Assembly (NCBI GenBank): GCA_013816135.1
Contig: JACDEV010000006.1
Location: 1-42,944, forward strand
Source of the DNA: Patescibacteria group bacterium
GTDB taxonomy: Bacteria > Patescibacteriota > Minisyncoccia > Phycocordibacterales > DATDWN01
Length of the DNA stretch: 42,944 bases
Direction of reading: 5' to 3'
Shown here: positions 21,689-35,629 of the stretch, one piece after another
Layout of the letters: each line of letters starts with the position of its first letter
Position numbering within the stretch: the first letter of the stretch is position 1
Position numbers and translations under genes: made by a program
The notes under the pieces: model-generated
The model's database searches: none
The model's input: only the letters and a program-made list of their open reading frames with translations
What the model was told of the DNA's origin: nothing

Positions 21689-23038
21689 ATGAGAAATCTA
21701 ACCAATAAAGAAGCTATCATCCTCTTTTTCGGAGATATTTTTTTCTTCATTTTCTCTCTTTGGCTCTCACTTTATTTGAGATTTAGAGAATTACCAACAC
21801 TCCTTAGATTCAAGACTCACTTGATACCATTTTCGATATTATTTGTAATCTGGATTTTGGTTTACTTCATTGCGGGTTTATATGAAAAGCATACTTTAAT
21901 ATTAAAAAGCAGATTACCAAGTATTATTTTCAATGTTCAGATTGTAAATAGTATTTTTGCCATAATCTTTTTCTATACATTTCCAATATTCGGTATCACT
22001 CCAAAGACTATCCTTTTTATCTATCTTTTAGTTTCTTTTATGTTTGCTTTAGGGTGGAGAATCTATGGAATATCTTTTCTAGGCAGCCCAACAAGAGAGC
22101 CAGCACTTTTAGTTGGATCAGGAAATGAAATGAGAGAACTTATGGATGAGGTAAACAATAACAGCCGATACAATCTACATTTCGTTTCTTCCATAGATGT
22201 TCAAGATGTTTCATCAATTGATATCCAAGAAGATATAGTAACTCCCGTATATTCAAATGAAATAAAGATAATAGCTATAGATTTTTCCCACGAGAATGTC
22301 GGTCCACTCCTTCCTCATCTTTACAATCTGATTTTTTCAAAGATTAGATTTATTGATTCTCATAGAATTTATGAAGATATCTTTGATCGAATACCATTAT
22401 CTATCGTTTCATACAGCTGGTTTTTAGAAAATATTTCTGTTTCTCCAAAATTTACCTATGATTTTTTAAAGAGACTCATGGATATTTTACTTTCATCAAT
22501 CTTATCTTTAATATCGCTTGTTTTTTATCCATTTGTTTACTTGGCAATTAAATTAGACGATGCAAAAAATATATTTATATTTCAAGAACGTATCGGTCAA
22601 AATAATCAAATAATAAAAATAATAAAGTTTAGAACAATGTCCCTTAACGATGGAGGTGAAGGTAATAATGATAGAGAACAAAAGATAACCAGAGTTGGAA
22701 AGGTCTTGAGAGCTACTCGAATAGATGAGCTACCTCAGCTTTGGAATGTTTTGAAAGGTGATATGTCACTGATCGGCCCAAGACCTGAACTACCTAATTT
22801 GGTTAAACTCTATGAAAAAGAGATATCTTTCTACAATGTTAGACATTTGATAAAGCCGGGTCTTTCAGGCTGGGCTCAAATCTATCAGAACTCACCTCCA
22901 AAGTTTTCCACTGATTATAATCAGACAAAAATAAAACTTTCTTATGATTTGTTCTACATAAAGAATCGTTCGTTCTTATTAGATATAAAAATCGCTCTTA
23001 GGACTATCAAGTCACTTCTTTCTAGAACTGGAGTATAA
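21689..23038 (+). CDS. Polyprenyl-phosphate sugar-phosphate transferase (initiating glycosyltransferase)
   Basis: 449 aa. Four to five N-terminal membrane spans (residues ~10-135), a short cytoplasmic domain, one further span at ~265-285, and the C-terminal bacterial sugar transferase domain (PF02397 type). Its signatures include LKRLMDILLSS, IIKFRTMSLNDGG, RATRIDELPQLWNVLKGDMS, LIGPRPELP and IKPGLSGWAQI. This WbaP/EpsL-type enzyme puts the first sugar-phosphate on undecaprenyl phosphate to start a surface polysaccharide or glycoprotein glycan. The last base of its stop codon is the first base of the next gene's ATG (TAATG), so it is translationally coupled to the first Cys/His-family gene. 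Glycosylation and the novel proteins may therefore be linked. Confidence 0.9.
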   Translation: MRNLTNKEAIILFFGDIFFFIFSLWLSLYLRFRELPTLLRFKTHLIPFSILFVIWILVYFIAGLYEKHTLILKSRLPSIIFNVQIVNSIFAIIFFYTFPIFGITPKTILFIYLLVSFMFALGWRIYGISFLGSPTREPALLVGSGNEMRELMDEVNNNSRYNLHFVSSIDVQDVSSIDIQEDIVTPVYSNEIKIIAIDFSHENVGPLLPHLYNLIFSKIRFIDSHRIYEDIFDRIPLSIVSYSWFLENISVSPKFTYDFLKRLMDILLSSILSLISLVFYPFVYLAIKLDDAKNIFIFQERIGQNNQIIKIIKFRTMSLNDGGEGNNDREQKITRVGKVLRATRIDELPQLWNVLKGDMSLIGPRPELPNLVKLYEKEISFYNVRHLIKPGLSGWAQIYQNSPPKFSTDYNQTKIKLSYDLFYIKNRSFLLDIKIALRTIKSLLSRTGV

Positions 23039-24411
23039 TGTCCTTAATGTATACTCGAAATATTTTGCTATTAGCAACTACACTGATTTTGCTTGTGTTT
23101 TTTACTTTCAAAAATATTAGCAGTATAGGTTTAAGTACCTCGCATGTTCAGATGGTTACAATTGATGATAATGGTTTTTTACCTGAAACTCTTACTATAA
23201 AAGAAGGCACAAAAGTAATTTGGAAGGCTTCTGGAAAACACTTGCACTGGCCGGCTTCAAATCCTCATCCTGTGCATACAGATTATCCAGAATCTGGAGG
23301 TTGCATAAGTAGTGCTTTAGATTCCTGTTATGGTTTGAAATCTGGAGAGGAATTCTCATTTGTTTTTAACAAGCTTGGTGATTGGGGAATTCACGATCAT
23401 CTTTTTCCTGGAAGCGTAATGAGTGTGAAGGTGGTAAGTAGGACAGCTTCCACAACTACTTTAGTTTTTTCCAAAGATTTAGTTTCGCCTTCGGAATTCA
23501 AATCATTGGATTATAGTAGGCAATTAGAAACTATAAAAAAACTTTCTGCTCTGGACCCTGCAAAAGCTTGGGATTATATAAAAAAAAGTTTCATTATAAA
23601 TGGACAGGTTGTAGGAAATGCTCATGAAATGGCACACATTGTTGGTCACAATGCTTATGCAAAATTTGGTCTGGATGGAGTTAAAATTTGTGATGATTCT
23701 TTTGCTTTCGGATGTTTTCATGGAGTGACGGAGGCAATGCTTTTGAAAGAGGGTGTGAAAAGTATAAGTAGAATCGAACAAGGTTGTTTGGATCGTTTTC
23801 CTCCCAAGTCTTCAAGTGACTATACAGGTTGTATTCATGGAACAGGTCATGGAGTCTATAGTTTGGAGGGGGCAGATATATCGAAAGCCTTGGAAGATTG
23901 TGACATCATAACTGAGCCATACAGGCAGTATTGTTATGACGGAGTTTTTATGGAAAATTCAAGTTCTCCATCCAGTAGGGTTTTTGATCCAAAGGATCCT
24001 TGGAAGTTCTGTACTGATCTGGATGTCAGATATCATAGAAATTGTGCAAGGTATCAAAGCCAAATCTTTTTAGGAAAGATGGGACATTCTAATCCCCTTG
24101 ATGAAGTCGGGGGGCTGTGTACCAAAGGTCCATCTATTCTTCTTCGACAAACTTGTTATCAGAGTTTAGGATTTTATGTCACACAAGGTGCTTTAGGTGC
24201 AAAGAATAAAATTTTACAAAACTGTGCTCAGATGCCCACTCTAGAGGGCAAAGAGATTTGTTCCACAGGTGCAGCCATTGAAAGTGTCTTCCAAAAGTAT
24301 GAAGGTTATGTGGAAACTTCACATGCAATCTGTAATACTTTGACTATGCTAAAGAAAACTGAATGTCTAGCTAATATTGAAAGAATGATAAATCCAAATG
24401 TCCAAAATTAA
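23038..24411 (+). CDS. Cupredoxin domain fused to novel Cys/His-rich family (paralog 1)
   Basis: 457 aa. Membrane span at 8-27, with the rest outside the membrane. Residues ~38-135 form a cupredoxin-like beta barrel with His68, His70, WPASNPHPVH (His77, His80) and WGIHDH (His119, His121); the Cys expected of blue-copper sites is replaced by His. Residues ~155-450 are the novel domain: H196-x3-H200-x3-H204, C226-F-H228-G, C265-I-H267-G-T-G-H271-G, and C299-Y-D-G-V-F-M-E-N. Regularly spaced cysteine pairs follow (C-x8-15-C), suggesting helical hairpins pinned by disulfides. First gene of the cluster, coupled to the sugar transferase, and overlapping the next gene by 14 bases. Function unknown; metal (copper) binding is inferred from the His/Cys pattern and the fusion. 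Confidence 0.8.
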   Translation: MSLMYTRNILLLATTLILLVFFTFKNISSIGLSTSHVQMVTIDDNGFLPETLTIKEGTKVIWKASGKHLHWPASNPHPVHTDYPESGGCISSALDSCYGLKSGEEFSFVFNKLGDWGIHDHLFPGSVMSVKVVSRTASTTTLVFSKDLVSPSEFKSLDYSRQLETIKKLSALDPAKAWDYIKKSFIINGQVVGNAHEMAHIVGHNAYAKFGLDGVKICDDSFAFGCFHGVTEAMLLKEGVKSISRIEQGCLDRFPPKSSSDYTGCIHGTGHGVYSLEGADISKALEDCDIITEPYRQYCYDGVFMENSSSPSSRVFDPKDPWKFCTDLDVRYHRNCARYQSQIFLGKMGHSNPLDEVGGLCTKGPSILLRQTCYQSLGFYVTQGALGAKNKILQNCAQMPTLEGKEICSTGAAIESVFQKYEGYVETSHAICNTLTMLKKTECLANIERMINPNVQN

Positions 24412-25645
24412 AACACAACATATAATCCAAATATCCCTTCTCTTTTCGGCAATAGCTATTGTAGTGTTTGGTAAAAATTTTATTCCAAAAACAATTTCAA
24501 GTGATACAGCGGTTTTGTCTTCAAATATTCAAGCTCAAAATATAGAAACTGACTGTCAAAGAAATAGCTCTTCATTTGGTAATAAAGAAACATGTTATTC
24601 TCATGCTTTCAATTTGCTTGCTGAAAAATCTGGACCCACCGTTTCCTTTCAAGTACTAAAAAATCTTCAAAAAATAGATCCTGATGCTATAGGATGTCAT
24701 CTTATTTCTCATGGTATCGGTATTGGTTCATACAAAAGAGACCCTGGGTCATGGCAAGAACTTATTCAAACAATGAGTCCAAGTTGTAATTATGGTGCTA
24801 TTCATGGAGTTTTGGAAGCCTATGTGGAAAGCTTGCCAGACAGGAAATTAACCTCAGAAATAATCCCAAAGATATGTGGAGTAAATCCAAGAGCAGATTG
24901 CAATCATATAGTCGGACACCTTATCCTTGTATTTACAAATGCAGATATGAAAAAAGGTTTGGACTCATGTGATGTATTTATGGACTATCGTCAGAGAGAC
25001 TTTTGTCAGACTGGGGTGTTTATGGAAGAACAAACTGCCTTAAATCTTATCGATCATGGTCTAGCTCCTAAATCCTGGTTGAATTGGCAATTACGTTTGC
25101 CTGACCTTGAGAAAATTTGCCGCTCTTATGGTGGTGATAAACTTTCTGATGACAAAGCTTCAGCTTGTTGGCAAGAGATTGTGCACGTAGCTTTGGTGGC
25201 TTTCCATAATGACGCAGAAAAGACGTTTCAATTTTGCGACACTGCGCAAGTCTTGGATGGAGCAAAAAGATGCAAACGTCATGCTCTGGGGATAATAGGT
25301 GCCACAAAGAATTTTGATCTCTCCAAATTAAAGTATATCTGCCAGATTCCACAAAAAAATGATCCAGACTTTGAAGGTGAGTGTTATCCTAATTTAGTTT
25401 CCAGTTCTTTATCTACTATTCCAGATGCTATAGACCCAGCTATAAATTTCTGCAGTAGCATAGAAGATAAATTTAAAGGTCCTTGTTTTTCTATGATAGG
25501 TGCTGTATCTTCTCACGGACCCGTAAGTAAGGACAGCTTACGTTTGGCATGTGAAAAAGCTCCGAAAGAATTCCAAGATTTTTGTTTTGGAAGTTATCAA
25601 GGAGGAAATGTCGGTGAAAATAAATACGGTAAAACAAATGATTAA
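24398..25645 (+). CDS. Novel Cys/His-rich family protein (paralog 2, divergent type)
   Basis: 415 aa with one N-terminal membrane span (~9-24) and an extracytoplasmic body. Family motifs are present in a variant form: C100-H101-x3-H105-G, C130-N-Y-G-A-I-H136-G, C158-N-H160-I-V-G-H164, and FCQTGVFMEE. The second motif has Cys and His five residues apart instead of two, a feature shared with the genes at 34007 and 29570. An extra Cys pair (C53, C66) lies before the domain. C-terminal paired cysteines continue (CRSYGGDKLSDDKASACWQE and further). The start overlaps the preceding gene, and the end overlaps the next by 38 bases, so all three are one translational unit. Confidence 0.78.
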   Translation: MSKIKTQHIIQISLLFSAIAIVVFGKNFIPKTISSDTAVLSSNIQAQNIETDCQRNSSSFGNKETCYSHAFNLLAEKSGPTVSFQVLKNLQKIDPDAIGCHLISHGIGIGSYKRDPGSWQELIQTMSPSCNYGAIHGVLEAYVESLPDRKLTSEIIPKICGVNPRADCNHIVGHLILVFTNADMKKGLDSCDVFMDYRQRDFCQTGVFMEEQTALNLIDHGLAPKSWLNWQLRLPDLEKICRSYGGDKLSDDKASACWQEIVHVALVAFHNDAEKTFQFCDTAQVLDGAKRCKRHALGIIGATKNFDLSKLKYICQIPQKNDPDFEGECYPNLVSSSLSTIPDAIDPAINFCSSIEDKFKGPCFSMIGAVSSHGPVSKDSLRLACEKAPKEFQDFCFGSYQGGNVGENKYGKTND

Positions 25646-26807
25646 TCTGAATTATTTTAAAGTTTCAAAAAATCAACGAGAGAGTTTCTTCCAGATATTT
25701 TTAATTGTTTTTGTATTTACTTTAGTTATTATTTTCTCTTTTTATTTTGGAAGCTTTTCCAAGCAGTCTTTATCTACGAGTAATAAAATTTCATCTGAAA
25801 TTACTGAAATAAAAACTACAACTAATCCATCCGTCCAAGCAAAACTATATAGACAACTCATAGAGAGAGTAGGTCCAGCAGAAGCCCAAGACGATCTTCT
25901 CAATTCTGGCCTGCCATTTACTGGACAAACACATCTTTTGAATCATGTAGTGGGGGATTTTTTATATGAAAAATTTGGAACAAAAGGTCTGGCCCAATGT
26001 AAAGACTATTTTCTTTCATCCTGTTACCACGGTTTCATACTTCATGTTATTGCAGACAAAGGTATAGAAGGTGTTAAGGAGACTTTCAATGAATGTTTGA
26101 AATTTGGACCAACAGTCTACTCACAATGTGCTCATGGTATTGGCCATGGATTTCTTGCAAGCGTTGGTTACAAGAATCTGACTTTAGCGTTAGATACCTG
26201 TGATAAAGTCGGCAAAGCCATTAAAGAATTTCCTTTGTTTAATTGTTATGATGGTGTATTTATGGAAAATATCTGGGCAGTTCACGAAGGCGTACCCTCA
26301 CCAGATAGATGGGTTAAGCCAGGAGATATTCTGTATCCATGCAATGACCCTAGAATAAATAGTAAATACATAACAGCCTGCTGGTCAAATCAACCTTCAC
26401 TAATCTACCAGTTTTATAAAGGAGATGTGAAAAAAGTAGGTCAAAACTTATGTCTTCCACTAACAAATCCAGAATATCAAAGAATGTGTTTTGACGGACT
26501 TTCAAGACAGATCCATCCGCTTACACAAGGTAGTAGTACGAAAACCTTAAGTCTTTGTGGATTGATGCCAAATTCTAAATGGAAGAATTTTTGTGTGGGG
26601 GTAAACGCTAGCGCAAGTTATGCAGTAGGGGACCACAATGTTCCGTTTAAGATTTGTGCTGAAGTTTCTGAAGATGGAAAAGGTGAATGCTATGAACGTA
26701 TATTTGGTATTGCAAAGGCTTATTCAAAAACTTCTACCGACTTTAAACTTGAGTGTAACAAAGTGACAGAACAGAGTTGGAAAGAACAGTGTCTCAGTAT
26801 GCAATAA
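25608..26807 (+). CDS. Novel Cys/His-rich family protein (paralog 3)
   Basis: 399 aa from ATG 25608; GTG 25614 (eight bases after AAGGAGG, better spacing) and ATG 25638 are alternatives that do not change the domains. Membrane span at ~28-47. Motifs: H109-x3-H113-V-V-G, C131...C139-Y-H141-G, C162...C174-A-H176-G-I-G-H180-G, then NCYDGVFMEN. C-terminal Cys pairs follow (LCLPLTNPEYQRMC, LCGLMPNSKWKNFC, ICAEVSEDGKGEC). Here the first His motif is TH-LLNH-VVGDFLYEKFG, nearly the same as in the 31676 protein, so these two are of the canonical subtype. Last gene of the three-gene unit, followed by a terminator. Confidence 0.78.
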   Translation: MSVKINTVKQMINLNYFKVSKNQRESFFQIFLIVFVFTLVIIFSFYFGSFSKQSLSTSNKISSEITEIKTTTNPSVQAKLYRQLIERVGPAEAQDDLLNSGLPFTGQTHLLNHVVGDFLYEKFGTKGLAQCKDYFLSSCYHGFILHVIADKGIEGVKETFNECLKFGPTVYSQCAHGIGHGFLASVGYKNLTLALDTCDKVGKAIKEFPLFNCYDGVFMENIWAVHEGVPSPDRWVKPGDILYPCNDPRINSKYITACWSNQPSLIYQFYKGDVKKVGQNLCLPLTNPEYQRMCFDGLSRQIHPLTQGSSTKTLSLCGLMPNSKWKNFCVGVNASASYAVGDHNVPFKICAEVSEDGKGECYERIFGIAKAYSKTSTDFKLECNKVTEQSWKEQCLSMQ

Positions 26808-26811
26808 ATAT

Positions 26812-26835
26812 AAAAACCGCCAATGGCGGTTTTTA
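26812..26835. terminator. Bidirectional terminator
   Basis: AAAAACCGCC, loop AAT, GGCGGTTTTT, between the convergent genes ending at 26807 and 26858. Confidence 0.85.
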
Positions 26836-26857
26836 TATTTTAGTGATTTAACTAGAA

Positions 26858-27367
26858 CTATTTCGTTATTCCTACCACACTCCACTTTCCAGCATTTAAT
26901 CCGTTTCCATTAGTATCACCTGGAGCTTTGTCTCCTACATAGAAATAAACGGGCTTCTCTCCATAAGCATACTGATATGTTCCATCTGGTCGCTTTATAA
27001 CATTCATTCTTTTTGAAAGCATATCTGTAGAAGAAGCTATATTCTTATTATCATATGCATAAGGAATCCAAGTTTTCGCACAGTCACCAGTACAGCTACT
27101 TGCTAGTCTTTTGTCATCTGCAGAAACATAGAGAGTCATTCCTCTACCATCCGTCAGATATTCTCCCAACGCTGTAGTTCTTCTACTTGATGAAATAAGT
27201 AAAGACGAATTATCTATTGGTGCTGTAACTGTATTGTCTACAGGACTAGTTGTTGTGTCTGGGACCACTTCAACCGGTATATTTTGAGGAACAGCTTTTA
27301 GGAAATAAACTCCAATTCCTAATAAGATTACTATCACTACCAATCCACCAATTATTTTTTCTTTCAT
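26858..27367 (-). CDS. Membrane-anchored PF03640-type secreted repeat protein
   Basis: 169 aa. One N-terminal membrane span (~5-23), Pro/Thr-rich linker, then a domain matching the 'secreted repeat of unknown function' / COG4315 lipoprotein family: GRGMTLYVSADD, the paired-Cys segment SSCTGDCAKTWIPY, and RPDGTYQYAYGEKPVYFYVG. Here it is membrane-anchored rather than lipidated. In other bacteria this family is often near cupredoxin and redox proteins, in line with its place among the cupredoxin genes here; its biochemical role is not established. On the minus strand TATTAT (27380-27375) ends seven bases before the ATG, suggesting a leaderless transcript. Confidence 0.8.
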   Translation of the reverse strand: MKEKIIGGLVVIVILLGIGVYFLKAVPQNIPVEVVPDTTTSPVDNTVTAPIDNSSLLISSSRRTTALGEYLTDGRGMTLYVSADDKRLASSCTGDCAKTWIPYAYDNKNIASSTDMLSKRMNVIKRPDGTYQYAYGEKPVYFYVGDKAPGDTNGNGLNAGKWSVVGITK

Positions 27368-27411
27368 AGGATATATAATAGTACAATTCTGTAGTCGTAC
27401 GTAGTTTTTTG

Positions 27412-27420
27412 TGTGGATAA
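27412..27420 (-). promoter_or_regulatory. DnaA-box-like 9-mer
   Basis: TGTGGATAA, i.e. TTATCCACA on the minus strand; the third perfect copy in the window, all in gene-free DNA (others at 3385-3393 and 8456-8464). Confidence 0.35.
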
Positions 27421-27448
27421 GTTTTTAAAAGTTGTCCCAAATTGAGGG

Positions 27449-27477
27449 TTGACAAATCAAATATAATGGGGTAATTT
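27449..27477 (+). promoter_or_regulatory. Promoter of the 27519 lipoprotein gene
   Basis: TTGACA at 27449-27454, 17-base spacer, TAATTT at 27472-27477. Confidence 0.5.
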
Positions 27478-27518
27478 TATGTTAGAAACGCTCTATCCAA
27501 TGCCTTGAAGGAGGCTCC

Positions 27519-27962
27519 ATGAAGAACTTCAGTTTCGTCGCAATTCTGGCGGCTGTGCTTTGCATGGCTTCCTGCGGTGGAAATTCTTCCCCCGCTGCTC
27601 CCAGCACGCCGACGCCGACCCCAACTCCCGTTTCCACCATCAAGGTGGATGGTCTGGGAGTGACGCCGAGCGTCGCTCACGCTGGAGACACCATTACGGT
27701 CTACTTCAATACGTTTCTCTGCCCCACGGGTTTCAGGTGGGGAGTTCTCTACACTCGAGACGATGGAGTGACTCGTCCCCCAAATGGAGCTTCATGTGTC
27801 ATAGGAGGCTCAAGTTCCGGTGCTATGAGCACGATCTTGAACGAACAAAATGACATGCTGTCGTTTTCTCGAGGTCACACACTAAAAGCGGAACTGGTAG
27901 TCATGGAAGTCTATCCAGTTCCAATCTGGCGATCGCTCGCCGGGTCAGTGTCCGTCCAGTAA
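27519..27962 (+). CDS. GC-rich small lipoprotein (cassette 1)
   Basis: 147 aa. Signal peptide with lipobox-like end (VLCMASC, Cys at ~19), a Thr/Pro linker and a beta-rich domain (IKVDGLGVTPSVAHAGDTIT, later FLCPTGFRWGVLYTRDDG). The start is fixed by AAGGAGG seven bases upstream. DNA is strikingly GC-rich for this window (39 of 60 bases at 27601-27660), with its own promoter and a strong terminator. The leader CCTTGAAGGAGGC and the codons for VAILAA are shared with the lipoprotein at 42292, so both derive from one ancestral cassette. Probably displayed on the outer face of the membrane. Function unknown; the composition suggests acquisition from another bacterium. Confidence 0.78.
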   Translation: MKNFSFVAILAAVLCMASCGGNSSPAAPSTPTPTPTPVSTIKVDGLGVTPSVAHAGDTITVYFNTFLCPTGFRWGVLYTRDDGVTRPPNGASCVIGGSSSGAMSTILNEQNDMLSFSRGHTLKAELVVMEVYPVPIWRSLAGSVSVQ

Positions 27963-27976
27963 CATTCGAGAAATTG

Positions 27977-28012
27977 TCCGGTTGGTTGTTTCTACAACCA
28001 ACCGGATTTTAT
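27977..28012 (+). terminator. Strong terminator after lipoprotein cassette 1
   Basis: TCCGGTTGGTTG / CAACCAACCGGA, perfect 12-bp stem, then TTTTAT. Confidence 0.92.
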
Positions 28013-28035
28013 GTTATAATTTTTATATTGATTTT

Positions 28036-28962
28036 ATGAAAAAATATTTACTTATTTCAGTTTTGTTTTTTATTATTTTCTCGATATTACCCAAATATGT
28101 TGATGCTTTTGTCGCAATTCGATGTGGCACAATTGGTGGAACCATAGATAACTCAGGTCAAGGTTTTTTTTCTACAAGCAATAATACATCTAATGGTCCA
28201 TATAATTACAGTTGGAATTTTGGTGATGGTGAGAGTTATACTGACAGTGCTCCATTTGGACAAAATCATTCTATAAGTCATCCTTATTCATTGTCTGGAA
28301 CATATACTGTAACTTTTTCTGCTGAATATACAGATGGACAAGATAGTTGTAGTAGTTCAAACAGTTTTAATTACATACCAGGTTACTCCTACCCGTATCC
28401 ATATCCATACCAATACCAATACCAATACGAATACCAGTATCCTTACCAATACCAATACCAATACCAATACCAATACCAATACCAGTATCAGTATCAGTAT
28501 CAATACCAATATCAGTATCAATATCAATACCAATACGAATATCCGTCTCCACCCATTGGAAGTGGCTATGTAACACCACCAGTTTACCCCTATCCCTCAC
28601 CACCTATTTATACCTATCAGTACCAGTACGAGTATCAGTACCAATATCAGTATCCGACACCTCCCGCAGTCTATATCTATCCGACACCTCCTATTGTATA
28701 CAATGTCATAACTACCAAAACCACAGGTGGTTCGATAAAGAGTGTTGATACCAAAATAGATTGCGGAGCGACATGTTCAGCAAGCTATGTACAAAGTACA
28801 AGTGTTACTCTCAAAGCTATACCAGCCTCATCTTATTGGAAGTTCTCAGGTTGGTCAGGGGATTGTTCAGGAACATCAATAACTTGTGTATTCAATGTGA
28901 ATTCACCGAAAACAGTCAATGCTTCTTTTGAAAAACGCTTCTTCAATTACAAGGAGTTTTAA
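28036..28962 (+). CDS. Secreted PKD-type protein with Tyr-Gln tandem repeats and C-terminal RFFNYKEF tail
   Basis: 308 aa from ATG 28036 (TATAAT at 28015-28020 lies 15 bases upstream). Signal peptide ~1-23, a PKD-like beta domain (SWNFGDGESYTD ... YSLSGTYTVTFSAEY), then a ~100-residue low-complexity tract of alternating Tyr-Gln with Tyr-Pro and Tyr-Glu. A Pro/Tyr linker leads to an InlB B-repeat-like domain (KTTGGSIKSVDTKIDCGATC, YWKFSGWSGDCSGTSITC). The end is RFFNYKEF, shared with the proteins at 37604 and 41316. Tyr/Gln repeats of this kind resemble prion-like or adhesive sequences. It probably forms a surface fibre or sticky spacer. No membrane anchor at the C-terminus, so the tail may be a sorting signal. 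Confidence 0.78.
   Translation: MKKYLLISVLFFIIFSILPKYVDAFVAIRCGTIGGTIDNSGQGFFSTSNNTSNGPYNYSWNFGDGESYTDSAPFGQNHSISHPYSLSGTYTVTFSAEYTDGQDSCSSSNSFNYIPGYSYPYPYPYQYQYQYEYQYPYQYQYQYQYQYQYQYQYQYQYQYQYQYQYQYEYPSPPIGSGYVTPPVYPYPSPPIYTYQYQYEYQYQYQYPTPPAVYIYPTPPIVYNVITTKTTGGSIKSVDTKIDCGATCSASYVQSTSVTLKAIPASSYWKFSGWSGDCSGTSITCVFNVNSPKTVNASFEKRFFNYKEF
28387..28700 (+). repeat. In-frame TAYCAR hexanucleotide array (Tyr-Gln repeats)
   Basis: Main block 28387-28545, second shorter block from about 28611 to 28660. Repeats keep frame because the unit is six bases, so copy-number change would lengthen or shorten the protein without breaking it. Synonymous variants (TAC/TAT, CAA/CAG) are mixed. Confidence 0.9.
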
Positions 28963-28995
28963 TATATAATGTTATAAGCCATTAATTTATAAAAT

Positions 28996-29553
28996 ATGCC
29001 ATCAAGTAAAATTATATTTTCTTCAATTATAGTTGTGGTTTTGCTGGGACTAGGATTGGGTTTTGTATTAAATCACAAATCTGCAAAAACAGATGTTGAA
29101 GTTCTACCCACTACAACTACTGAACCTGTAGTTACCGCAAAAGCAACAACAACCCCAACAAAAAACAGTGGGACAGTATCTTCCTTAGATAAGGCCTTGT
29201 CCGCCGATGAAAAAACAGTTTTGTATGCACCTGGCAGTACAGCATCTGCAGAAGCAACTCAAGCTCATTTTGATTTAGCCAATAAAATTGCTGTTAGTAC
29301 CGATAAAATAGTTATCAATGATTGTTTAGCTACTCCAGTAGTATTGAAAACTAAACTTGGCAGCACTATCACCATTTCAAATCAAGGCACAAAGGATTTT
29401 GAGTTCAGAGTTGATACTAGCAGTATTTCTATACCAGTAGGAAAAAGTGTTAGCTATAAAATTGAATTCAAGACAGGACAAGGTCTATATGGATATGGTT
29501 GTGACGAAGAAGGTTTGAATAGAGCAATAGGGCTTATACTAGTCACTCAATAA
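28996..29553 (+). CDS. Small anchored cupredoxin-like protein with two conserved Cys (copy 1)
   Basis: 185 aa. Membrane span at ~7-24, Thr-rich linker, then a helical segment and a beta-barrel domain of about 80 residues: IVINDCLATPVVLKT (Cys110), GSTITISNQGTKDFEFRVD, and GQGLYGYGCDE (Cys169) at the position of the copper Cys loop in cupredoxins. The canonical first His ligand is not evident, so copper binding is uncertain and a disulfide Cys110-Cys169 is an alternative. Paralog of the protein at 31077. Each copy stands directly before a Cys/His-family gene, forming a repeated two-gene module. Confidence 0.7.
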   Translation: MPSSKIIFSSIIVVVLLGLGLGFVLNHKSAKTDVEVLPTTTTEPVVTAKATTTPTKNSGTVSSLDKALSADEKTVLYAPGSTASAEATQAHFDLANKIAVSTDKIVINDCLATPVVLKTKLGSTITISNQGTKDFEFRVDTSSISIPVGKSVSYKIEFKTGQGLYGYGCDEEGLNRAIGLILVTQ

Positions 29554-29569
29554 TTTCGTAAGTTGTGAT

Positions 29570-31042
29570 AAAAAAAAAAGAGCGTGGGTAAAAGTTTTAC
29601 TTTTTAATCTTATCTTCGTAGCGATTGTTGCACTTATATATTTTCAGCAAGTTCACAAAATATTTTTTTCTAGGATTAATAGAAATACTATTGTACTGCA
29701 GGAAAGTGGATTTTCCCCGACTGAATTGACAATAAATATAGGTGATACCGTTACGTTTAGCACAAATCGTGACGTTTCTTTTTGGCCAGCTTCTGATCCT
29801 CATCCGTCACATTCTATATACTCAGAATTTGATTCAAAAGAGCCGATTTCCCCTAAAAATACGTGGAGCTTTACCTTTGAAAAGTCAGGAATTTGGCATT
29901 TTCATGACCATACAAATCCCTACTTTAATGGCACAATAAATGTGTTGGATAAAAATGGAGTCGTTCAATATAAATGTGATACTAATAACAAAGAGAAATG
30001 TTGGGATGACTACCTGTCATTAGCTGTAAATACCGGAGGTCCCAAAGGGGGGTTAGACGCCCTTTCTTACTTGATGAAAAATGATCCAAGTTTTGTTGAT
30101 CAGGGATGCCATGCTTATGCTCATCGTGTTGGTGAAAAATCATTAGAATATTATTTATCAAGTAAAAAAGATATAAGTCAGTGGGATTTTCCTATTGAGT
30201 CAACATATTGTGGCTACGGATTTCTGCATGGAGTATTCGAACATTACTTTCGCATCAAACCTTCTTTTGTTTCTGAAATTTGCTCTGAACTAGATAAGAA
30301 ATTTTCCTCTGAGATTCCCAGAATTCGGCTAAATTGTTTCCATGGAGCAGGTCACGGCTTCATTCAAGATCCTCCAGAGGAAAGTTTATGGGGCAATGTC
30401 CAAGGAATAATTTCACCCGCTTTAGAAAAATGCTCCAAAGTATCACCGGGAAACAATAATGATGAAATTACTGAATGCAATGAAGGAGTTTTTAATATTA
30501 TAGCAGGGTGGATGATGTCGGGTTCTTACAGTATTTCTAAGTTCGATGAGAACGACCCTTTTGAGTTGTGTCGGAACCAGACATCGTGGCCATATCAAAA
30601 AGCTTGTTATTACGAGCTTTCTCTTAAGGTTAATTTTTTTGGACACGACAATATACCAGAGCTGGCTAAGAGATATGCAAATAAAATTGCAGATAATGAA
30701 ATTGCAGGGATGGTCCTTCATTCTATTGTTGCTTCTGTTGTTCAAGATACAGTAGATAAAAATGATTTTACAGACTATCTTCTTCAGTGTAGAGAATTGC
30801 AAGAGCGACTTCATAAGGATTGCTTGGCTGCTATAGTTGGAGGACTCATGGCACATGGTGTGCCACAGCAGGAATATGTAAAACCTTTAAAATTATGTAG
30901 CTCAGAAAAAATGAATATGACAGAAAAAGAATATTGCTTCTCACAATTAGGAGCGGTTATAAAGAAGACTTATGATAAGGGAAAAGTAAGTGAAATTTGT
31001 CTTTTGTATCCGGATTCGTATAAAAAATACTGCCAACTATGA
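29570..31042 (+). CDS. Cupredoxin-Cys/His family fusion (paralog 4); start interrupted by an A10 tract
   Basis: About 490 codons are open from 29543 to the stop at 31042. They encode a membrane span (VLLFNLIFVAIVALIYF), a His-only cupredoxin domain (FWPASDPHPSH, WHFHDH) and the Cys/His domain (CHAYAHRVGEK, YCGYGFLHGVFEHYF, NCFHGAGHGF, CNEGVFNII). No ATG, GTG or TTG lies in this frame before 29726, which is past the membrane span. GTG at 29565-29567 is well placed but is one base out of frame across a run of ten A (29570-29579); eleven A would join them. So either the assembly lost one A, or expression depends on slippage or phase variation. Its Cys/His domain is of the divergent subtype, like 24398 and 34007. 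Confidence 0.72.
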   Translation, partial: KKKRAWVKVLLFNLIFVAIVALIYFQQVHKIFFSRINRNTIVLQESGFSPTELTINIGDTVTFSTNRDVSFWPASDPHPSHSIYSEFDSKEPISPKNTWSFTFEKSGIWHFHDHTNPYFNGTINVLDKNGVVQYKCDTNNKEKCWDDYLSLAVNTGGPKGGLDALSYLMKNDPSFVDQGCHAYAHRVGEKSLEYYLSSKKDISQWDFPIESTYCGYGFLHGVFEHYFRIKPSFVSEICSELDKKFSSEIPRIRLNCFHGAGHGFIQDPPEESLWGNVQGIISPALEKCSKVSPGNNNDEITECNEGVFNIIAGWMMSGSYSISKFDENDPFELCRNQTSWPYQKACYYELSLKVNFFGHDNIPELAKRYANKIADNEIAGMVLHSIVASVVQDTVDKNDFTDYLLQCRELQERLHKDCLAAIVGGLMAHGVPQQEYVKPLKLCSSEKMNMTEKEYCFSQLGAVIKKTYDKGKVSEICLLYPDSYKKYCQL

Positions 31043-31076
31043 TACATAGACTTATAATTTAAAAAAATGATAAACT

Positions 31077-31631
31077 ATGATTATGAATAAAGAACATCTT
31101 AAAAAAGCGGCACTAAATAATAAATTAATAGTTTCTCTTGTGGGTGTGGCGTTGATATTAGGAGTTGCAATTTACTTCAAGAATCATCCGAATACTAGTT
31201 CTCTTTCATCTTTGAAGCACGAAACATCTTCACTCTCCAACACTCCATTGGCAAAAATTCCACTTGATTCAACTCTTACTGTAGAAGAAAAGGGATTGTT
31301 TTATACTCCACAAAAAGATGCTACAAAGGCAGAGCTAGAAACATATTCAACATTAGTGGCAAAAAATGCAACCGAAGGAAATGAAATTGTTATCAATGAT
31401 TGTAAATCTAAACCTGTAGTCTTGAAGACTACATACGGCAGTATTTTCAACGTAAAAAATACAGGAAAAACAGACATTCATTTCGGTTTCGGTTCAGAAC
31501 GTACATTGATCAAAGCTGGTAGCAATGAAAAAATAAAAGCTAACTATTCTACAGGTCCAGGAATATATGGTTATGGCTGCGACGACCCTTCTTTGTCTAG
31601 ATCTATAGGCTTACTCCTCCTAGTTCAATAA
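31077..31631 (+). CDS. Small anchored cupredoxin-like protein with two conserved Cys (copy 2)
   Basis: 184 aa, clear paralog of the protein at 28996: membrane span at ~18-33, EIVINDCKSKPVVLKT (Cys109), then TDIHFGFGSERTLIKAG and GPGIYGYGCDD (Cys168). In this copy a His follows the strand (DIHFGF) where the first copper ligand of cupredoxins would be, so it may bind copper even if the other copy does not. ATG 31077 and the in-frame ATG 31083 are both possible. 44 bases upstream of the next Cys/His-family gene. Confidence 0.7.
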   Translation: MIMNKEHLKKAALNNKLIVSLVGVALILGVAIYFKNHPNTSSLSSLKHETSSLSNTPLAKIPLDSTLTVEEKGLFYTPQKDATKAELETYSTLVAKNATEGNEIVINDCKSKPVVLKTTYGSIFNVKNTGKTDIHFGFGSERTLIKAGSNEKIKANYSTGPGIYGYGCDDPSLSRSIGLLLLVQ

Positions 31632-31675
31632 TTTCTTTGTTTCAGTAGATTTGCTATATTTAGCTCATTAGAGTT

Positions 31676-32944
31676 ATGAAATTTCTTAAAGGCAAATCTT
31701 TTCTGGTTTTATTGTTAATTTTAATCAATGCAGTTTTATTGGTGGTTTTTTTTAAACCCAGTCATCAGACTATTTCTTCTTCTACTACTACTACTACTAA
31801 TAATAATTGGCAAAATGTAGATTATCCAGAAATAAGTAGTATTGGGAAAGATTGGGATTTTCAAAAATATACAAAATACTTTCAAAATCTGGCGGAACAG
31901 AAGGGAGGGGAATATGCCTATCATGCTTTAGCTACTGCCGCCAATAAAGGCTACATAGCTGGAAATGTTGATACTCATCTATTAGGACACACCGTCGGTG
32001 ATGTACTTTATAAGCAGAAAGGTATTGAGGGTATAAAAGTCTGTACAGATGATATTCGTAACGCTTGCTCACATTCTATTGTTGTAGGGTATCTTTTGGA
32101 AAACGGAGCATCCAGTTTGGGCAAAGCAGTGGAAGCTTGTCATGATGCGCCGGGTGGATCTGGAGCGTATACAATGTGTGTTCATGGCTTAGGTCATGGG
32201 GTGTTAGCTTATGAGGAATATGATATGAAAAAGGCAGTAAATTTATGTAATAAAATCGGTACTCTTAAATCTGCAAACATAGAAATAGGGCAATGTATTG
32301 GGGGAGTGACAATGGAAATGATGGCTGGGGTCCATGATCATGAGGCATGGATTAAACAAGTTCCAAATTATTTCAAAGAAAATGATCCTTTAGCCCCATG
32401 TGATTCGGGGTTTATATCCAAAGAATATACAAATTTTTGTTATGTATATTTAACTCCCCATTTATTCAAATCCGCAGGCGTAGAGCTATCTTTTCCTGAC
32501 CCAAAGCTTTTTAATAAAGCAATGAAATACTGCGAAGGCATTCCCTTTGAAGACAGAAATAGAAGTACGTGTTTTGGAAGTTTTGGAAAGGAATATGTTG
32601 TACTATCCAACGCAAGAAATGTCCAGAATGTAAGTTCTATGAAAGACGCACAATTATTACAAGTCTATAATTGGTGCAAGCTTGGACCTGTAGAAGGAGT
32701 TTCTCCTTGTATTGAGTCAGCACTACAGTCGATTTATTGGGGTGGAGAAAATGATTCAAAAGTTTCAGTTAGATTTTGCAACATCATACCAGATCAAAAA
32801 TATTCAAATGAGTGCATGGAAAATCTTATAGGTTCTGTTTCATACTATGTTAAAGATGCTAAATATAGAGAGTTATTTTGTAGTGAGGTTACTGAAAAAT
32901 TTAAAGAAGATTGTCGCGCAAGGCTATTAAATCCAATAAGATGA
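31676..32944 (+). CDS. Novel Cys/His-rich family protein (paralog 5)
   Basis: 422 aa. Membrane span at ~8-26, Thr/Asn linker, then the family domain: H101-x3-H105-T-V-G-D-V-L-Y, C123...C131-S-H133-S, C155...C168-V-H170-G-L-G-H174-G, and QCIGGVTMEM in place of the usual C-Y-D-G-V-F-M-E. C-terminal paired cysteines continue to the end (WCKLGPVEGVSPC, FCNIIPDQKYSNEC, FCSEVTEKFKEDC), about one pair per 35-45 residues. This periodicity resembles disulfide-pinned Sel1-like helical repeats such as Helicobacter Hcp proteins, although I see no Sel1 consensus. The stop overlaps the start of the next gene (ATGA). Confidence 0.78.
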   Translation: MKFLKGKSFLVLLLILINAVLLVVFFKPSHQTISSSTTTTTNNNWQNVDYPEISSIGKDWDFQKYTKYFQNLAEQKGGEYAYHALATAANKGYIAGNVDTHLLGHTVGDVLYKQKGIEGIKVCTDDIRNACSHSIVVGYLLENGASSLGKAVEACHDAPGGSGAYTMCVHGLGHGVLAYEEYDMKKAVNLCNKIGTLKSANIEIGQCIGGVTMEMMAGVHDHEAWIKQVPNYFKENDPLAPCDSGFISKEYTNFCYVYLTPHLFKSAGVELSFPDPKLFNKAMKYCEGIPFEDRNRSTCFGSFGKEYVVLSNARNVQNVSSMKDAQLLQVYNWCKLGPVEGVSPCIESALQSIYWGGENDSKVSVRFCNIIPDQKYSNECMENLIGSVSYYVKDAKYRELFCSEVTEKFKEDCRARLLNPIR

Positions 32945-34005
32945 AAAAAAGATTTTTAATTTTATTGCTAATTTTGGTTATTGTAGTTGAAGGTGTACTT
33001 TTGATAAAGCCTACTGGGTTTATAAAAAGTATTTTCGAAATGAAACCTAAACTTATAAGTCAGAATGTAGGTCCTGAATATCTTTCTGACCATGAGATGA
33101 TAAATGAAAAAAATAGATGGTCAAAAATAATGGATGAGATTGGTCCAGAGAAGGCATATGCAAAATTTAAAGATGAATACAGTACAAAAAATTTTGGAAC
33201 ACAGCATGTGGCAGCCCACATTATTGGAGCCCTTCTATACCAGAAAGCTGGTTTGAATGGACAAGCTATTTGCGATAGCACTTTTTCTTTCGGTTGTTAT
33301 CATAGTTTTTTCTCACAAGCTTTAACAGATAAAGGTCCTTCAATTATTTCAAGTTTAAACCAAGTATGTCTCGATAAATTTGGCCCTTTGGGTTCGGGCT
33401 GTCAGCATGGAATTGGACATGGAGTGATGGATTATTTTGGCCAAAAACATTTACTTGATGCATTGAAGGCTTGCAAACCGACAACATCTTTCAGTGCAAT
33501 CTCCGGTTGTACTTCAGGAGTATTTATGGAATACAATGTCCCAATTATAGTTACGGAAACAGATGCAAACGCCATTTCTAGACCATTGGATACAAAAAAT
33601 CCATATGCACCTTGCCCGGCTTTGCCAAAAAGCTTTCAGGAGTCTTGTTACTATTCCATAGGCCAATGGTGGGATCAAACACGTGTTTATAAAGGAGATT
33701 GGAAATCCCAAGGTTTGCTCTGCAAAAATATTCCGGATGTGGCATTTATGGAAACTTGTTATCTTGGAATAGGAAATGTAACTGCGCCAGATAATAATTA
33801 CGATCCAAAGAAAACTATTGAAAGTTGTCAGAAAATGCCTAATCAAAAGGCGATTGTAACTTGTCAGGCCGGTGCTTCGTGGAGTTTTGCAGCAAATCCC
33901 GATTTTAAGCCTTTGGCAATAAAAATATGTGATGAACTTAATGATAAAGATAAGAATGAATGTTTGCGAATAGGTAATCTGCTCAATCCAAATAACAATA
34001 GGTAA
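32941..34005 (+). CDS. Novel Cys/His-rich family protein (paralog 6)
   Basis: 354 aa from ATG 32941, which overlaps the previous stop in ATGA. One N-terminal membrane span (~5-22). Motifs: H89-x3-H93-I-I-G-A-L-L-Y, C111...C119-Y-H121-S, C143...C154-Q-H156-G-I-G-H160-G, then GCTSGVFMEY. Later Cys pairs: CPALPKSFQESC, LCKNIPDVAFMETC, SCQKMPNQKAIVTC, ICDELNDKDKNEC. It is the shortest and clearest member and would make a good query for defining the family. Translational coupling to both neighbours indicates equal production of paralogs 5, 6 and 7. Confidence 0.78.
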   Translation: MKKRFLILLLILVIVVEGVLLIKPTGFIKSIFEMKPKLISQNVGPEYLSDHEMINEKNRWSKIMDEIGPEKAYAKFKDEYSTKNFGTQHVAAHIIGALLYQKAGLNGQAICDSTFSFGCYHSFFSQALTDKGPSIISSLNQVCLDKFGPLGSGCQHGIGHGVMDYFGQKHLLDALKACKPTTSFSAISGCTSGVFMEYNVPIIVTETDANAISRPLDTKNPYAPCPALPKSFQESCYYSIGQWWDQTRVYKGDWKSQGLLCKNIPDVAFMETCYLGIGNVTAPDNNYDPKKTIESCQKMPNQKAIVTCQAGASWSFAANPDFKPLAIKICDELNDKDKNECLRIGNLLNPNNNR

Positions 34006-34006
34006 T

Positions 34007-35215
34007 ATGAATTTAAAAAAATTAAAAAATTTATTTAAATATAAGCATGTGGCTGTTGTTGTACTGCTTGTTGTTATTTTTATTGAATTGATTAGTTACT
34101 TTCATTTAAATAGTGTCACTACTCAAGCTGATATAGAGAATTATGCAAATAAAGTTTTAACACTATGTAAAGATACTAAATATCATCCAGCTTGTTACGA
34201 CAAAGCCATTCCTCAGTTAATGGACTATATCTCTATGGAGGATGCATTTAAAGTTACATCAATTGTTCAAGATAAAGATCGTAGCTATTTATATTGTCAT
34301 GTATTAGCTCATGCATTAAGCGCCCGGGAAGTAGATAAAAATCCATCGGCATGGAAAGATGTTGTTTCTCGCGTACCTTCAGGAATGTGCTCTAATGGCG
34401 GAATACATGGAGCCTTCCAAGAAAGATTTAGAGGAGAAACATTTACCGAAGAGCAACTCCAAACAATAAAACCAGAATTAAATGACCTGTGTGAAGAGCG
34501 TGATAGCTGGCATCCGACAGGTTTAGAGCAGGCTTCTTGTTATCACGCCCTTGGACACTTAACTATGTATCTCACATCGGCAGATATACCTAGATCTCTT
34601 AGCTTATGTGATGAAATATCACTTAAGCCAGGAGGTAGGGATTATAGGCATCTATGTTACGACGGAGCATTTATGCAAATCTTCCAGCCTTTGGAGGCAG
34701 AGGATTTTTCACTTATCATCGGAAAAGAAGTTACCAAAGAACAGCTTCCAGATTTTTGTAATAAATTTACTGGAGAAGTTAAAGGTTCGTGTTGGTCGGA
34801 AGGTTGGCCATTGTATAGGTCTGAATTAGAAAAACCTGAAGGTTTGAATAGTTATTGTTCAAAAGCATCATTATCTGAACGTGATCGTTGCTTTTCTTCT
34901 ATTATTTATGTGATGACAGCTATGTTTAATTTAGATAGTAATAAAATCATTTCCTATTGTCCAAAGGTTGTAAAAAACCAAGTAGGGGGATGCTTTGCTA
35001 GCGGAGCCTCTAGGATGATAGAAGTAGATTATCGAAATATTGATAAAGCAGCAGAGTTATGTACTGAAGCAGAAAAATTCGATCCAAAACATACATGCTT
35101 CAAAACACTTTTGCAGTACTCAACCTACAATTTCAAGAAAGACTCTCCAGAGTTCTATAAGGTTTGTAATAGTATGCCAACTGAATGGAAAGAACTTTGC
35201 CTTAAAAAACAGTAA
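34007..35215 (+). CDS. Novel Cys/His-rich family protein (paralog 7, divergent type)
   Basis: 402 aa. Membrane span at ~14-33. The divergent motif set is C97-H98-x3-H102, C128-S-N-G-G-I-H134-G, C178-Y-H180-A-L-G-H184, then LCYDGAFMQI. An extra Cys pair (C54, C63) precedes the domain, as in the 24398 protein. C-terminal pairs include FCNKFTGEVKGSC, YCSKASLSERDRC and LCTEAEKFDPKHTC. It starts two bases after the previous stop and ends immediately before the free-standing cupredoxin gene. Confidence 0.78.
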   Translation: MNLKKLKNLFKYKHVAVVVLLVVIFIELISYFHLNSVTTQADIENYANKVLTLCKDTKYHPACYDKAIPQLMDYISMEDAFKVTSIVQDKDRSYLYCHVLAHALSAREVDKNPSAWKDVVSRVPSGMCSNGGIHGAFQERFRGETFTEEQLQTIKPELNDLCEERDSWHPTGLEQASCYHALGHLTMYLTSADIPRSLSLCDEISLKPGGRDYRHLCYDGAFMQIFQPLEAEDFSLIIGKEVTKEQLPDFCNKFTGEVKGSCWSEGWPLYRSELEKPEGLNSYCSKASLSERDRCFSSIIYVMTAMFNLDSNKIISYCPKVVKNQVGGCFASGASRMIEVDYRNIDKAAELCTEAEKFDPKHTCFKTLLQYSTYNFKKDSPEFYKVCNSMPTEWKELCLKKQ

Positions 35216-35629
35216 ATGAAAAAAGCAGTAATCTTTACTTTGTTGGTAGTGGTTTTTTCAGGAGTTTGGTTTTTTTATAACCGAATTTATTCTATAAAAT
35301 TAAACTATGTCGAACCTAAAACTACTTTCAATGATAAAAGTAGTATAAATGAAAGTGATATCGTAGTGAAAATTACTGCTCAAGGATTTGTTCCATCATC
35401 AATCAATATAAAGAAAGGTAAGAAAGTATTTTGGCTTAACGAAAGTGGTACTTTAGCCTGGCCAGCCTCCAATCCTCATCCTACACATTCTGATTATCCA
35501 GGATTTGACCCAGAACTTCCTATGCCTGTAAATCAGAGTTGGTCGTTTGTATTTAATAGGGTTGGAAGATGGGGGTACCATAATCATCTCAATTCAGCCT
35601 TTAGAGGAGTTGTAAATGTTTCTGAATAA
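35216..35629 (+). CDS. Free-standing membrane-anchored His-rich cupredoxin
   Basis: 137 aa. One membrane span (~5-21), a short linker, then a single cupredoxin-like domain (~48-137) homologous to the N-terminal domains of the 23038 and 29570 proteins: VKITAQGFVPSSINIKKGKK, WPASNPHPTH (His88, His91), RWGYHNHL (His122, His124), GVVNV. There is no cysteine at all, so this cannot be a classical type 1 (blue) copper site; an all-His copper site is possible. The ATG directly abuts the stop of paralog 7, so the two are translationally coupled. Possibly a copper donor or electron carrier for the Cys/His proteins (inference from context). Confidence 0.78.
   Translation: MKKAVIFTLLVVVFSGVWFFYNRIYSIKLNYVEPKTTFNDKSSINESDIVVKITAQGFVPSSINIKKGKKVFWLNESGTLAWPASNPHPTHSDYPGFDPELPMPVNQSWSFVFNRVGRWGYHNHLNSAFRGVVNVSE

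Follow-up and report, generated by a model that had tools for sequence, protein, structure and literature searches.

Where does translation begin in a gene whose reading frame, as assembled, encodes a membrane anchor and the first strand of a cupredoxin domain and holds no ATG, GTG or TTG ahead of them? The gene lies in a window of 42,944 nucleotides, which is the whole stretch of DNA that we analysed and the entire contig C24 of an uncultured Patescibacteria-like genome (789,385 bases assembled in 27 contigs, 98.4% complete). Its product is a fusion that comprises, in this order, a basic N-terminus, a membrane helix, a cupredoxin domain and a Cys/His-rich helical domain. The features of the locus on which our analysis rests are compiled in Table 1.

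The frame of the fusion opens after the TAG at 29540 and continues uninterrupted through 31042. The initial annotation had reported that this frame contains no ATG, GTG or TTG before 29726, and our codon check agrees with it in every coordinate: no such codon occurs upstream of the TTG at 29726, and the earliest translation table 11 start of any kind is the ATC at 29612, which is already inside the membrane span. Of the start codons in the other frames, the TTG at 29563 is closed directly by the TGA at 29566, before the run of ten A (A10) is reached, while the GTG at 29565 is followed by the run within four codons. It had also been proposed that this GTG would be in frame if the run had eleven A. 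Frame arithmetic confirms the proposal and adds that the two frames are joined as well if the run is two bases shorter. The sole A10 of the genome falls exactly where the gene lost contact with its start. If the loss of the start had another cause, the chance that the only A10 would hit the approximately 70 bases between the opening of the frame and the membrane span can be calculated as about 1 in 10,000.

Table 1. Position of the features around the frame break, measured from the first nucleotide of the window.
Feature	Position	Strand	Remarks
Upstream gene	28996..29553	+	Membrane span and weak cupredoxin-like domain
Cupredoxin-fusion open frame	29543..31042	+	499 codons, stop to stop
GTG	29565..29567	+	Sole upstream start whose frame is still open at the A run; offset from the fusion frame by one base
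8-codon reading from GTG 29565, as assembled	29565..29591	+	Stop codon TAA at 29589
Run of ten A	29570..29579	+	No other A10/T10 in the 789 kb assembly; codes for the lysines in the basic N-terminus
Membrane-span segment	29600..29683	+	Approximate limits; hydrophobic portion of the long model helix (residues 10-47)
Residues 49-61: first strand of the cupredoxin domain and the conserved G-F-x-P segment	29687..29725	+	From alignment and model
TTG, first canonical in-frame start	29726..29728	+	Its use would lose the membrane helix and the first strand

The missing N-terminus is real coding sequence, because the homologues have starts before the span, because residues G56, F57 and P59 are conserved and because the first strand is confidently modelled. 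A start before the hydrophobic segment is present in 88 of 90 homologous frames (83 ATG, 3 GTG and 2 TTG), while the two exceptions are L102, which runs off its contig, and L109, which has none of the three codons there. These 90 frames cover the beginning of the cupredoxin domain and come from 72 loci in contigs of one genome per species (the best 80 of 181 matches); some of them are cupredoxin-only proteins, and several of the loci belong to records that were also used in our separate comparison of related genomes. Across 39 aligned sequences, P59 is found in all and G56 and F57 in at least 90%, and all three residues are upstream of codon 62, which is the TTG at 29726. Twenty-eight columns of this alignment are invariant in all 39 sequences, including the query; it contains 38 homologues, i.e. 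37 of the 41 listed plus the paralogue from the same genome, with L122, L127, L128 and L138 left out. A smaller alignment was made with 14 homologues hand-picked from the listed loci plus L007, and all 14 picks start with ATG. The AlphaFold2 model of the entire frame has a mean pLDDT of 90.9, with the helix at residues 10-47 and the first strand at residues 49-53, and no second lesion was found across the 499 codons of the fusion. Homologues, alignment and model together bear out that the frame encodes a membrane span and a cupredoxin strand, as had been annotated, and rule out that the frame before 29726 is non-coding. With the codon bookkeeping, the homologues and the model also support the central claim, namely that the start and the rest of the gene, on either side of the A10, are out of phase by one base. 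The locus is best explained by a gene in which nothing is damaged but the length of one A run in its first codons.

Three of the homologous loci merit a separate mention. L100 is the closest homologue among the matches listed, and we considered whether it shares the sequence that precedes the start; the DNA there is unlike by eye, although the tblastn match, which begins at residue 4 of the query, extends upstream of the ATG of L100. L109 (2132-3610, in a record named Daviesbacteria) has neither an ATG, GTG or TTG nor an A run before its membrane span and may possess a non-AUG start, the only candidate codons in this region being ATT, CTG and ATA. In L126 (2501-4141, in a record named Kaiserbacteria), the match spans the family and the open frame has only 138 codons, i.e. 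the gene is interrupted.

The assignment of the first globular domain to the cupredoxin fold is based on profile matches to amicyanin and to copper nitrite reductases and on the best Foldseek match of the fusion, the purple cupredoxin 5fc9 (TM score of 0.80, normalized to the target). The single-sequence Pfam match to Cupredoxin_1 gave 21.6 bits, which is below the cut-off of 27 bits. A blue (type 1) copper protein is defined by a Cys copper ligand in its cupredoxin domain. Residues 48-136 of the query are devoid of Cys, and none is found among the conserved columns of this region in the 39 aligned sequences, so the fusion fails as a protein of this type. The domain (29687-29950) has conserved histidines at H87, H90, H121 and H123, and this pattern in the aligned sequences would suggest a metal site unlike that of blue copper proteins. 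From about residue 145, the C-terminal helical domain contains many conserved Cys and His residues, in motifs such as CHxxAH, YGFYHG and CYHGIGHG. Pfam yielded no family above its threshold for this domain, and none of the solved structures is a convincing match. Among the matches listed, it is joined to a cupredoxin in many Patescibacteria and in some other metagenome-assembled genomes; the named homologues of the fusion in that list are mostly Patescibacteria genomes of this kind (e.g. Kaiserbacteria, Taylorbacteria and Nomurabacteria), and the weaker ones include some Chloroflexota and other phyla. Together with the genome size and the kinship to related genomes, these homologues point to Patescibacteria as the source of the window.

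The length of the run is unusual for this genome. Exact A runs, counted on both strands, comprise 193 A8, 18 A9 (20 overlapping matches minus the 2 that derive from the A10) and 1 A10, with none longer. Markov chains of first to third order fitted to the window predict, depending on the order of the chain, 126-200 A8, 44-77 A9 and 23-48 runs of ten or more. A8 is not avoided, A9 is somewhat avoided and A10 is avoided almost completely, which one would expect if A runs of such length are slippery in this organism; the counts therefore indicate that the genome avoids the lengths at which RNA polymerase slips. Baranov et al. (2005, PMC1088944) place the threshold of avoidance at nine in many genomes, and take the avoidance of runs from about nine upward in many bacteria as selection against RNA polymerase slippage. 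The counts in the present genome point to selection against slippery runs from nine A upward. In the family to which it belongs, 14 of 17 genomes lack any run of ten or more, and in the order a run of exactly ten is present in 37 of 118 genomes, the present one included. One of the three family genomes with runs of at least ten, which belongs to the same genus (G010), has many very long runs (15-18 A; loci L072, L080, L088 and L094), several of them inside apparent genes. One contig of that genome begins with A, and by eye the flanks of its runs look like sequence in which some bases were exchanged for A; these very long runs are therefore probably an assembly artefact.

We tentatively read the locus as a gene whose frame is broken at a slippage-prone A run and partly rescued, either by RNA polymerase or by -1 ribosomal slippage, with the GTG at 29565 as the native start, i.e. 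as a “pseudo-pseudogene”, and we assign to this reading a probability of about 0.4. Translation would start at this GTG, which is separated by 11 bases from the stop of the preceding gene, and the A run would code for lysines ahead of the membrane anchor. The DNA as assembled would be one A short, such that plain decoding would yield a peptide of 8 residues, and RNA polymerase stuttering on the run would add one A in a fraction of the mRNAs, from which the full-length protein would be made. Alternatively, the same fusion protein may come from ribosomes that move back by one base while they read the run. We infer all three of its elements, which are the use of the GTG as start, the true presence of ten A in the DNA and the rescue of expression by slippage.

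Several observations are consistent with this reading. The term pseudo pseudogenes was given by Baranov et al. (2005, PMC1088944) to disrupted genes rescued by slippage that carry slippage-prone runs of 9A/9T. In our case, the homologous products come from one uninterrupted ORF that has its own start, the run at the break has at least nine A, and the frames are joined by a change of one in its length. In the frame of the GTG, AAA AAA would occupy the P and A sites and permit a -1 slip into the frame of the fusion, as any long A run would do. Programmed ribosomal frameshifting gains nothing from the region past the run (29580-29680), which folds no better than its shuffled versions (z of +0.79) and shows no sign of a stimulatory RNA structure; on this basis, we reject a stimulatory hairpin as the driver of such frameshifting. 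As for the start itself, the lack of a Shine-Dalgarno-like motif before the GTG is ordinary, because 20 of the 22 window genes examined lack one and 2 have it. A/T-rich sequence precedes many starts among these 22 genes. Against the GTG, this codon is the start of none of the 22 genes, a set chosen mainly from ORFs that begin with ATG, and of 3 of the 90 homologous frames.

A slippage site that has been maintained for a purpose is a different matter. In none of the 90 homologous frames does the segment from the start to the membrane span contain nine or more consecutive A, and the longest run there is 8, in 3 of them; conserved programmed slippage at the run is thus not supported by the sequences compared. 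According to Baranov et al. (PMC1088944), conserved runs are a criterion for purposeful slippage, and under this criterion the lack of conservation in the 90 frames argues against a purposeful site and in favour of a chance frameshift that slippage makes leaky. We regard as improbable a deliberate expression valve, in which the A10 would be retained at the start of a surface copper-type protein and would control, through polymerase slippage or switching of the run length, the amount of anchored protein.

An assembly or consensus error, in which the true length of the run keeps the gene in frame from the GTG at 29565 and one base was lost, is nearly as likely as the slippage reading. It predicts identical DNA, which we counted against slippage. 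Consensus errors fall at long homopolymers, and all the other parts of the gene are intact. In the other genomes of the order, moreover, 15 of 29 loci have their tract of exactly A10 in an intact ORF of at least 150 amino acids on the same strand, with 7 of these 15 tracts no more than some 50 bases from the start, and a run close to a start is thus normally in frame there; the comparison is based on 30 tracts, at most one per genome, from the 37 genomes with a match, the thirtieth being that of the window itself. On the other hand, open ORFs of at least 140 amino acids, on either strand, contain 14 of the 18 A9 runs of the genome. Long A runs therefore do not as a rule break genes in this assembly, and we reject a breakage of the whole assembly at homopolymers. 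A longer true run would also be even rarer than an A10, given the 14 of 17 family genomes that lack runs of at least ten. If, instead, the run is correct and the frameshift is recent and has silenced the gene, we would be looking at an early pseudogene that is tolerated as paralogues remain. A full-length paralogue of the fusion does exist in the genome (contig C14, 34% identity), and the gene cluster around the fusion includes additional partial relatives. This alternative is quite improbable, since the 499 codons have no second lesion and since a run of ten A is expected to be leaky from what Baranov et al. describe (PMC1088944).

Phase variation, the third cause that had been offered besides slippage and a lost base, would require that cells differ in the length of the run and that this turns the membrane protein on or off, with the assembly representing the off state. 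Longer runs mutate more often, which is in its favour. The position of the poly(A) right after the start and the product of 8 residues also recall inlA of Listeria (PMC2831843). Nevertheless, a second allele was not found in the collections searched: neither the protein of the window nor the smaller alignment retrieved one from the genome contigs (one genome per species), the matches listed for the alignment being distant relatives (best identity of about 40%); the viral contigs gave one short match to the protein profile and none to the exact 30-base pattern; and distant blastn found no second record of the locus in plasmids. Moreover, 0 of the 90 related frames have a run of at least nine A at the site. 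Phase-variable genomes have many tracts, whereas this one has no other A10. We consider this explanation unlikely; it has no support beyond the tract itself, while slippage and a lost base both remain. The A run would be irrelevant if translation started at a non-canonical or internal in-frame codon (ATC 29612, ATT 29624 or TTG 29726), for which L109 speaks as a homologue without ATG, GTG or TTG before its span. We regard such a start as very improbable: the window has no table 11 start before the span, the ATC at 29612 being inside it; a start at the TTG at 29726 would leave out both the anchor and the first strand; and the presence of the only A10 of the genome at the site would be a coincidence. 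A leaky site or an error is the most likely outcome, and slippage sites and one-base assembly errors are both of kinds already known.

The slippage reading has parallels in known systems. As in the pseudo pseudogenes described by Baranov et al. (PMC1088944), the frame is disrupted, the homologues have one ORF, a slippage-prone A run lies at the break and a fraction of the mRNA would regain the frame through slippage; the present case differs in that the run is within four codons of the start and the genome belongs to an uncultured Patescibacteria-like organism. In Listeria monocytogenes, the A6 allele of inlA stops after amino acid 8 and reversion from A6 to A7 has been measured (Orsi et al. 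2010, PMC2831843). The 5’ poly(A) tract of inlA resembles ours in its position just after the start, in the stop after amino acid 8 and in the restoration of the frame by one added A. However, both inlA alleles occur in strains and their reversion is documented in that report, whereas here there is one allele, and the proteins are unrelated. The run of 11 A in tssM1 of Citrobacter rodentium is a proven transcriptional slippage site (PMC4256274), where a poly(A) shortly before a premature stop, as in our locus, allows an added A to join the frames. According to the same source, tssM1 needs both protein lengths and both were demonstrated, while the short product of the present gene would have 8 residues and is unlikely to act. 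Genes frameshifted in poly(A/T) tracts are also found in Blochmannia and Buchnera (PMC3017870), which share with our case a small genome, a single homopolymer indel in an otherwise intact gene and a proposed rescue by slippage. The difference is that B. vafer is reported there to have eight such genes, while in the present genome only one run reaches A10 and longer runs are avoided.

If the ten A are real, the gene is a single natural reporter for the slippage of RNA polymerase or of the ribosome in its lineage; a search of the open-licence PMC literature found no report on transcriptional slippage in the Candidate Phyla Radiation, and the matches listed from the same literature include none that ties Patescibacteria to phase variation or to homopolymers. 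It would also be a warning that gene callers would shorten such proteins, in this case to the TTG at 29726, with the loss of the anchor. If the assembly is in error, the lesson is one of annotation only, and if the A10 were an expression valve, it would document a use of slippage in this radiation. The locus would be of more than modest interest only if reads and RNA confirmed the ten A and a use for them.

The surroundings of the gene consist of related sequences. The region from 23038 to 35629 is a cluster of related membrane proteins, in which each small cupredoxin-like copy (28996-29553 and 31077-31631) is followed by a gene with a Cys/His domain. These two small genes are 34% identical to each other, and pieces related to the fusion are present inside 23038-24411, 24398-25645 and 35216-35629. 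By eye, the gene at 31676-32944 carries Cys/His motifs that resemble those of the fusion. Further upstream, the gene at 27982-28962 contains PKD and InlB-type repeats together with a long repeat tract rich in Tyr and Gln (YQYQ...).
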